Below are positions 30,633 through 63,808 of a stretch of 64,000 nt of DNA, one piece after another (the stretch's first letter is position 1; the number at the start of each line of letters is the position of its first letter). Below the pieces are notes generated by a model that was not told the origin of the DNA, did no database searches, and was given only the letters and a program-made list of their open reading frames with translations. The position numbers were made by a program, and so were the translations under genes. Location of the stretch: positions 1 through 64,000 of the forward strand of contig NZ_JAAKEN010000018.1 in assembly GCF_011039175.1 (NCBI RefSeq), read 5' to 3'. Source of the DNA: Slackia sp. ZJ119. Lineage in GTDB: Bacteria; Actinomycetota; Coriobacteriia; Coriobacteriales; Eggerthellaceae.

Positions 30633-30721
30633 GTCGGAGTGGTGGAACGGCAGACACGCTAGCTTGAGGTGCTAGTGCCCACATCTCGGGTGTGCGGGTT
30701 CAAATCCCGCCTCCGACACCA
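30633..30721 (+). tRNA. tRNA-Leu (anticodon GAG), prophage target
   Basis: Class II tRNA: acceptor GTCGGAG/CTCCGAC, anticodon stem CTAGC/GCTAG around TTGAGGT (GAG), long variable arm, T-arm GGGTTCAAATCCC and encoded CCA. The prophage joins at its 3' end, leaving the tRNA whole. Confidence 0.96.
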
Positions 30722-32178
30722 GACGAACAAAGTGTGAACCCTTCCGAGGGTTCACACTTTTTTTGTGCCGCGAGCGTGACGCGAATCTCTTCCAAATCGC
30801 CAACTTCGTCACGGAAGTTGAATACGATCAGGGCGCAATCCGCGAACAGATACACTTTGTTGACCACGTTGCCAAAGACGAAATCCTCGTCCGAGCGATC
30901 GAAGCCGTGCGTCATGAACGACACGATATCGTCCTCCGTGACCTCGCATAGCTGGCTTGCGAGGATTCCGAGGCGGTTGTGAAGGTTCTTCAGCTGCAGC
31001 TTGATCTGCTCGTTACGCTCAACCATCTCGTCTGTGACGAAGCCATTCATAGCTGCCTTGGTCAGATTGTGCTGCTCGCGTTCTAAAGCTGCGATCTGTT
31101 GGTTTGCTGCCTCGATCTCCGCCTGTTCCTCTCCAGGCTCCGTGTATGCTTCGACAATGCGGCGGGCGACCATGCGCATCTTCTCCTCGTTCGAGCATAT
31201 GTCGAGTACTGCGTCTGCTATGGAGTCCTCAACAAGCTCGCGCCGCACCCACGAGCGGCTGCATCCGCCGTTTGCCTTGCAGGCATAGTAATAATAGCGA
31301 CGACCGCTCTTGCCGGTTCCGCCGCAGCCGTGCATGGGCTGGCCGCAGGAGCCGCAGTAGAGCTTTCCAGTCAGTCTGTAGTCCTCCCACGATTCATCGG
31401 CTCGGCGCTTCTTGGGAACGACGGCCTGCGAGCGCGAGAAGGTCAGCTCGTCTATGATCTGTGGCATGCCGTCCTCGACTTCAATGCCTCCCCATGAGTA
31501 TAGCCCCGTGTATGCTCTGCGGTTGAGGATGCGGTATGCCCAGTTGTAATCGACAGGTGTTCCCTTCGATGTAGTCCAGCCGCGTTCTGCCATGGTGCGG
31601 GCGATGGAGTTGACGTTCTCTCCTCTAATATGCAACGCGAACATCTCGCGGACGCATGCCGCCTCGCCCTCGTTGATGACGTACCTGCGCGTCTCTGGGT
31701 CGGTATCGTATCCGAACAGCTTGTATCCGTTGTTCCTGGCCTTGAAGGCGTTTCCCTCCATCCCTCGTCTCACCTTGCGTGCCAGATCGGCCACGTAGTA
31801 TTCGGACAGTATTTCAAGCAAGCCTTCCTGTAATCCGCCCTCGGGCGTATCTTCCACCTTCTCCATGGCTGAAATGACTCTGACTCCGCATTCGCGCAGT
31901 GCTTTCTTGTAAGTTGCCGAATCGTATCGGTCGCGGGAAAACCTATCGAACATGTAGACGACCACGTAATCAGATTCTGGGGCGTTCGCTATCATCTTGC
32001 GAAACTCCGGTCGTTGGTCGGTTTTTCCAGAAAGCGCGTAATCGGTGTACTGCCTCAAAATCTCAATGTCCTTGGCATTGCAGAAGTCTCGGCACACGCG
32101 TATCTGGTCGTCTATGGACGCCTCGCGCTGCTTGTCGGATGAATAGCGGGCGTAGAGTACGGCTGTTTTCTGTGTCAT
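30700..32178 (-). CDS. Large serine recombinase (integrase)
   Basis: 492 aa. The N-terminal resolvase domain has YARYSSDKQ (catalytic S13) and MFDRFSRDRYD. The recombinase domain follows, then a zinc ribbon (YCGSCGQPMHGC...YACKANGGCSR) and a coiled coil near 370-410. It integrates and, with a directionality factor, excises the phage. ATG 32178 after GGAGAGG. The final codons run through the tRNA-Leu terminator and tRNA 3' end, and the stop lies in the T-loop, so this C-terminus exists only in the lysogen. In the excised circle the same frame would continue from 63775 to a stop at 63689 (about 513 aa). Confidence 0.93.
   Translation of the reverse strand: MTQKTAVLYARYSSDKQREASIDDQIRVCRDFCNAKDIEILRQYTDYALSGKTDQRPEFRKMIANAPESDYVVVYMFDRFSRDRYDSATYKKALRECGVRVISAMEKVEDTPEGGLQEGLLEILSEYYVADLARKVRRGMEGNAFKARNNGYKLFGYDTDPETRRYVINEGEAACVREMFALHIRGENVNSIARTMAERGWTTSKGTPVDYNWAYRILNRRAYTGLYSWGGIEVEDGMPQIIDELTFSRSQAVVPKKRRADESWEDYRLTGKLYCGSCGQPMHGCGGTGKSGRRYYYYACKANGGCSRSWVRRELVEDSIADAVLDICSNEEKMRMVARRIVEAYTEPGEEQAEIEAANQQIAALEREQHNLTKAAMNGFVTDEMVERNEQIKLQLKNLHNRLGILASQLCEVTEDDIVSFMTHGFDRSDEDFVFGNVVNKVYLFADCALIVFNFRDEVGDLEEIRVTLAAQKKCEPSEGFTLCSSGVGGGI
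30716..30723. other. Left attachment core (attL)
   Basis: ACACCAGA spans the tRNA-Leu CCA end and recurs at 63768-63775. Short shared cores are normal for serine recombinases. The flanks are also alike after the core (CGAACA here, AACGAACA on the right). Confidence 0.65.
30729..30764 (+). terminator. Terminator after tRNA-Leu, also coding for the recombinase C-terminus
   Basis: AAAGTGTGAACCC and GGGTTCACACTTT form a 13-bp perfect stem, then T7. It ends tRNA-Leu transcription in the lysogen and on the other strand encodes KKCEPSEGFTLCS of the recombinase. Confidence 0.9.
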
Positions 32179-63375: not shown

Positions 63376-63560
63376 GGTTTGCGCTGCGAGCCGAATTGCG
63401 AGACCGACGTCCCGATGGCGGCTGTAGAATAGGTAGCGAGACCGATCTGGTCGATTGATCTCAAAACGGTGGTTTATGCATTCCTGCGCCAAGCCGTTTG
63501 TCTGCGGAAACGCAAAGGTTATTAACATGGTAAGGCTCGAAGTATAATTTCTGTGGGGTG
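63376..63560. other. AT-rich gap after the endolysin
   Basis: No gene; contains the TATAAT (63543-63548) of the next small gene, with TTAACA 15 bases upstream. Confidence 0.5.
63543..63548 (+). promoter_or_regulatory. -10 of the right-end small gene
   Basis: TATAAT with TTAACA upstream at a short spacing of 15; 22 bases before the start codon at 63570. Confidence 0.5.
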
Positions 63561-63569
63561 ATGTTTTAC

Positions 63570-63731
63570 ATGGAAAACGTTTCAAGCAATAAGAAAGTCA
63601 AGCGTTCGCTTCGTGAAAAACACATGGCGGATACGTTGCTTAAGCTGTATAAGCAATGGGTTGATGCAGGAAGACCTAACGTAAATGATCAGGCAGCCTT
63701 CACTAATGGTATAAGCAAACCGAAGCCATGA
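63570..63731 (+). CDS. 53-aa right-end gene, possible directionality factor or moron
   Basis: Starts MENVSSNKKVKRSLREKHMADTL: basic, helical, AT-rich DNA unlike the phage. GGGGTG upstream; ATG 63561 is an in-frame alternative. Own promoter, next to attR. A small basic protein near the recombinase in the circular form could be its directionality factor, but this is only position-based. Confidence 0.5.
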   Translation: MENVSSNKKVKRSLREKHMADTLLKLYKQWVDAGRPNVNDQAAFTNGISKPKP

Positions 63732-63767
63732 CGCAGTATGATGGGTTCCACCTTTCTTCTACATGGT

Positions 63768-63775
63768 ACACCAGA
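63768..63775. other. Right attachment core (attR)
   Basis: ACACCAGA again, followed by AACGAACAGCC and the terminator. See attL. Confidence 0.65.
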
Positions 63776-63782
63776 AACGAAC

Positions 63783-63808
63783 AGCCGCCTTCGGGCGGCT
63801 TTTTCTTT
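63783..63808 (+). terminator. Rho-independent terminator, presumed original tRNA-Leu terminator
   Basis: AGCCGCC TTCG GGCGGCT then T6CTTT. Directly after the right att core; joining across the cores places it after tRNA-Leu. Confidence 0.85.

Follow-up and report, generated by a model that had tools for sequence, protein, structure and literature searches.

At one end of a prophage of Slackia sp. ZJ119, the gene for a serine recombinase runs into the tRNA gene that served as the integration target, which raises the question of whether the integrated prophage and the excised circle encode the same enzyme. The window referred to below is the whole stretch of DNA analysed (64,000 nucleotides, contig NZ_JAAKEN010000018.1); its prophage is about 33 kb long and spans from tRNA-Leu(GAG) (30633-30721) to position 63775.

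Integration site and crossover

The following features define the prophage ends and the recombinase gene:

30633..30721, plus strand: tRNA-Leu gene, anticodon GAG, CCA encoded (ARAGORN), target of integration
30716..30723, plus strand: core ACACCAGA, copy at the left (attL) end, supported by the empty site in G136
63768..63775, plus strand: core ACACCAGA, copy at the right (attR) end
30700..32178, minus strand: 492-aa lysogen form of the large serine recombinase, C-terminus ...SSGVGGGI (open reading frame; PF00239, PF07508, PF13408)
63689..63775, minus strand: stranded tail-coding segment, SGVPCRRKVEPIILRHGFGLLIPLVKAA plus stop, the first three codons being shared; conserved in L003, L036, G152 and G344

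On the plus strand of the window, ACACCAGA occurs at the two prophage ends only. In G136, belonging to the same genus, the site is uninterrupted (99% over 141 of 149 nt) and reads from tRNA-Leu through ACACCAGA into the flank that in the window lies to the right of the prophage. The crossover can therefore be placed within or very near this octamer, at a resolution coarser than the single base. Two features expected of a serine-integrase element, an att core common to attL and attR and an empty attB in a relative, were both found for the element of the window.

Two C-termini encoded by the same gene

The resolvase, recombinase and zinc-ribbon domains (PF00239, PF07508 and PF13408, all above cut-offs) follow one another in the order of serine integrases. 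Since the gene points out of the prophage and into the tRNA, its last codons are antisense tRNA and, as the first-pass annotation had stated, its stop codon (30700-30702) lies in GGTTCAAATC, a stretch of the tRNA T-loop. The same annotation had proposed that past the core the frame goes on from 63775 for 28 codons up to a stop at 63689; joining the two ends at ACACCAGA yields this frame, with a product of 513 aa whose read-through across attP is predicted as ...GVPCRRKVEPII.... The two forms have 488 residues in common, followed by GGGI in the lysogen and by PCRRKVEPIILRHGFGLLIPLVKAA in the circle, the segment 63689..63775 becoming the 3' end of the gene once the circle forms. On the opposite (plus) strand, an ORF of 57 aa (63558-63731, MMFYMENVSSNKKVKRSLREKH...) overlaps the stranded tail.

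Other signals are embedded in, or adjacent to, the same DNA:

30729..30764, plus strand: terminator-like hairpin plus T run within the recombinase coding region (terminator scoring), likely used by the tRNA gene while the prophage is integrated
30729..30741, no strand assigned: AAAGTGTGAACCC, putative attP P' arm, which also makes up the 5' half of the terminator stem
63743..63755, no strand assigned: GGGTTCCACCTTT, proposed P arm of attP, an imperfect inverted repeat of the P' arm (10/13)
63783..63804, plus strand: hairpin plus T run, located behind the tRNA when the site is empty (same order in G136), presumably the tRNA's own terminator, displaced by the prophage

The first of these hairpins (30729-30760, with T's behind) scores as a terminator. 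It had been described as a 13-bp stem overlapped by the last twenty or so codons; the overlap holds for about the last 10-20 codons, whereas the stem measures 14 bp. Protein and terminator functions, together with a putative att-arm function, thus appear to be combined in the 3' end of the recombinase gene. A third copy of the arm-like 13-mer, at 30748-30760, is the 3' half of the terminator stem, and binding of the recombinase there might couple att binding to termination or autoregulation.

Circle forms and core breaks in related elements

Forms of the gene reading across attP were found in several relatives. In L003 (G117:C139), whose recombinase is 66% identical to that of the window, the frame passes the attP core into VPCGACREPAIIVLPHGFGLVIPLSA. 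The order of matches along this 32.5 kb contig fits a circular permutation of the window prophage; its ends do not overlap, the stretch corresponding to the last third of the prophage shows no DNA similarity, and a search of the locus for a tRNA found none. The attP form is also present on L036, a viral contig from a metagenome (68% identity), with the tail VPGDYSREPRVIALPCGFGIVIPLAS. The prophage of G152 is inserted in tRNA-Glu and its lysogen-form recombinase ends in SRGAPSGVRTRD...; at its far end, the core GCACCA (228161-228166) is followed in frame by GAPGKRLPEPTVITISGGFCIVISLKAA. The right end of this prophage is adjoined by the remnant of another recombinase C-terminus (L147, G152:C1 ~228155-228275, ...NEPARVNVSRVRTVEQWC), apparently a scar left by a previous element in that tRNA-Glu.

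A profile of four tails (window, L003, L036 and G152) was then used to search six genomes, three of which were themselves sources of the tails. In G344, absent from the profile, it matched RGVPGKGLPEPIPLPGGFGIIIPLRRA at E 2.5e-8. This tail is located at an 8-bp core shared with the attL of the same prophage, in the same frame, and its stop is not visible because the contig ends two bases further on; the recombinase had previously been known in the lysogen form only (L026/L118). In this search G354 gave no match, and G057, whose recombinase gene is devoid of its middle part, gave nothing below E 0.86. The locus L022 (G057:C150, 1277-1881) contains a tRNA-Leu(GAG) and the remains of a related recombinase, with the middle missing and a frame change before the tRNA. 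The circle form occurs in nature on viral contigs (L003, L036), and its tail is present at the far ends of prophages (G152, G344).

Breaks at the core can also be seen between close relatives. L039 matches L040 without a difference over 323 nt, and the two split directly past CTCCACCA, from where L039 enters the hairpin and L040 reads NCEQHGFS and a stop. Compared with tailed relatives, L041 and L050 depart at this point too, L053 and L078 a few bases past it, and L098 around it; the comparisons L052/L061, L060/L095 and L043/L057 were uninformative or ended by a contig end. The difference is also found among named phages. According to PMC11792537, the assembly of Pioen was made with DNA of virus-like particles from Faecalibacterium HTF-238 after heat treatment; the recombinase of this phage has the hairpin tail NQEQNEHRTTIQMVGNVFVLFCEIPNVTLT as C-terminus. 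Its relative Taranis diverges after CTCCACCA and shows no hairpin; the first part of the Taranis record is the end of the recombinase, and the record resembles that of a prophage. Lelie and Toutatis show the same tail difference at the protein level.

That lysogen and circle should encode different C-termini had also been predicted, and it is strongly supported by the joined frames, by the attP forms in relatives, by the core breaks and by the pair Pioen/Taranis. At the level of sequence, the C-terminal swap on integration and excision is confirmed.

Structure, recurrence and selection of the tail

An alignment search of IMG/VR retrieved 335 relatives, the best 80 of which were kept. Many relatives have a common C-terminal pattern, i.e., two short hydrophobic strands about a turn, as in NPAAIYFVGAVFVLVLPLPLDQR, NPNTLFFVKHCFGFVFIVEEV and RRTPEATVIVVRFGIVLACKLQI. 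AlphaFold2 models of L036 and L088 contain two C-terminal strands (pLDDT of the block about 77 and 84, respectively) preceded by a low-confidence linker, so that the tail is predicted to be a hydrophobic beta-hairpin. The solved recombinases (SPbeta YokA, Bxb1, A118 and phiC31) have the same domain order as the window-type enzymes and align to the L036 model over about residues 1-456; the tail lies beyond the aligned part and is barely covered.

Recurrence was assessed with leave-cluster-out profiles (37 clusters at 55% identity over the first 440 residues), trained on 42 tails chosen by eye, with a pass threshold of 2.9 bits, which is the 99th percentile for shuffled tails. The profile was passed by 47 of 133 proteins: 36 of the 42 tails picked by eye (the other six failing) and 11 unpicked proteins. 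Within the cluster of the window the attP forms scored 18.5 (L003), 10.9 (G152), 8.8 (window) and 5.7 bits (L036), with 0/100 shuffles each. None of the six lysogen entries of the same cluster passed (L026, L037, L038, L116, L117 and L118, several being copies of one element), including L037, an IMG/VR contig whose protein is identical to the window lysogen form and gave no match to the tail profile; likewise, none of the 28 listed tRNA- or tmRNA-integrated tails did.

The codon positions at which close pairs differ were also compared. Eleven pairs of hairpin tails, two of which contain one identical tail (L102, L105), gave 48/24/77 differences by codon position (p 7e-7), versus 48/42/39 (p 0.61) in eight pairs of tRNA-integrated tails, two of which are copies of each other (39/35/32 minus the copy). 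The split test superseded a count of 143/94/160 over 24 pairs in which the two kinds of tail had been pooled; inside the window's own cluster, the codon counts were too small to be telling.

These data bear on the possibility that attP merely overlaps the gene end, conservation being due to a constraint on attP DNA or to a chance frame. The tail is partly read from the proposed P arm (GAACCC giving the shared EP) and many relatives have no detectable tail; however, the hairpin sits beyond the proposed arm, it is mostly at third codon positions that the tails differ, the tail is detected with a profile built on other clusters, and the DNA 3' of the stop is unrelated in most pairs of the 24-pair test. 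Such a by-product is very improbable, and a chance open frame was rejected on the basis of the codon-position test and of the profile trained across clusters. Conservation caused by an opposite-strand gene was rejected as well: the plus-strand ORF of the window overlaps the tail, whereas that of L003 (1158-1421) stops short of the recombinase ORF end (1423). Judging from the sequence comparisons, the circle tail is a conserved element selected as protein in many large serine recombinases, and the case of the window is not unique.

That the hairpin is a rule among relatives was not supported by the joining of prophage ends: a hairpin tail was obtained in four of 15 prophages (window, G152, G134 and G024) and none was found in the other 11, some of the joined stretches being short (17.7 kb in G004, 40 kb in G003). 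The window and G152 are not independent cases here, because the profile included L003 and L036, relatives from the window cluster, and the G152 joins were made at arm repeats because a core of 6 bp, as in G152, falls short of the 7-bp threshold, this core being found by reading. None of the seven relatives with ...NEPAR-type or similar ends read from tRNA-Glu, Arg, Lys or Asn gave a hairpin. In a scan of the whole prophage with the same profile, which is weak, the tail ranked first both in the window (7.8 bits, E 3.7) and in G152 (E 0.021).

Recombinases of tRNA-integrated elements end in antisense-tRNA peptides, e.g., MVEPRGIEPLTSWLPAMRSPS or RDSNPRYPP; such ends are listed for L014, L017, L012, L120-L122, L132, L134, L139 and L142, and annotators may take them for genuine protein ends. 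The record of the integrase of Roseburia phage Shimadzu (LR596903.1 orf31, L035, 1420-3083) flags it as incomplete or a pseudogene; its open frame ends in the hairpin-like tail PVYFFKKVFAVVVNFTRK.

Possible function of the tail

The two reading frames, the crossover region, the presence of both forms among relatives and the selection of the tail as protein are shown by sequence. They fit a scheme, which we regard as probable, in which attP is located inside the 3' coding region of the recombinase, the circle encodes a hairpin-tailed enzyme of 513 aa and the tail acts in the unintegrated state, a role in direction being the likeliest. In this scheme the free circle encodes the full enzyme with its C-terminal beta-hairpin; integration into tRNA-Leu cuts the gene at the core and exchanges the last 25 residues for four antisense-tRNA residues, leaving the tail-coding end stranded at attR, and excision brings the tail back.

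In large serine recombinases the zinc-ribbon/coiled-coil part governs direction. The likeliest mechanism, still tentative, would be an action of the tail on this part. The enzyme made from the circle would then be biased toward attP x attB integration, and the one made from the lysogen, which has no tail, would carry out excision together with a directionality factor. Since the tail is selected as protein yet is joined to the enzyme in the circle alone, its function should lie in the phase in which the genome is not integrated, i.e., in establishment after infection or in the period after excision. Packaged tailed phages arise from lysogens, and it would therefore be the tail-less form that excises. 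The most likely effect would be a shift of the enzyme toward integration or against the reverse reaction; the second most likely would be a shorter life of the enzyme.

Integration might instead inactivate the enzyme, if the tail were essential: the lysogen form would be dead and excision locked until another integrase comes. The lysogen protein does lack a conserved part and has arbitrary host-encoded residues at its end. However, PMC11792537 describes Pioen and Lelie, whose free forms are tailed, as recovered from virus-like particles of their own lysogens, so some integrase excised them, and inactivation is the least probable of the readings considered here.

The main rival to a role in direction is a stability tag, with the circle form degraded via its hydrophobic C-terminus and integration removing the tag; if so, re-integration after excision would be limited, or integration would be a short burst. 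A close precedent exists in the repressor gp33 of mycobacteriophage BPs, which according to PMC4557955 is 136 aa long in the virus but shortened to 103 aa in the prophage; the 33 residues that attP encodes at its C-terminus target it for degradation. As described there, attP lies in a reading frame near its 3' end, and integration gives a different, shorter C-terminus while excision restores the longer one, as in the window. The BPs gene, however, is an immunity repressor and its tail is an ssrA-like degradation tag, whereas the window gene encodes a serine recombinase whose tail is a predicted beta-hairpin with ends that vary in relatives. A tag would agree with the hydrophobic nature of the tail and with the AA or similar ending seen in several tails; yet other ends are found (RR, KR, EV, QI), and what recurs is the spaced two-strand pattern. 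A stability tag is the less likely of the two readings.

Relation to known systems and implications

In archaeal SSV-type integrases, which are tyrosine recombinases, the att site also lies within the integrase gene, which is hence altered by integration; there the gene is split and disrupted, whereas the recombinase of the window exchanges its last 25 residues only and keeps its enzyme domains whole. In the mainly open-access literature searched, no description of a C-terminal swap in serine integrases was found, nor a report of an att-dependent C-terminus for YokA, Bxb1, A118 or phiC31.

How serine integrases decide between integration and excision is a key problem, and their application in genome engineering depends on it. 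A conserved tail unique to the circle-encoded enzyme offers a direct handle on it, since direction or lifetime might be adjusted by adding or removing the tail. When recombinases of this kind are obtained from prophage sequences, their C-terminus is not complete, its place being taken by residues that the host encodes, in many cases antisense tRNA; tools cloned from such sources may therefore be incomplete. As for the family, it is conceivable, though still doubtful, that a widespread group of phage serine integrases senses insertion of the phage through the structure of its own gene, the conserved hairpin being confined to the enzyme made from the free circle; this would be a self-encoded control of direction, besides the directionality factor, in which each recombination swaps in the version of the enzyme suited to the opposite reaction.
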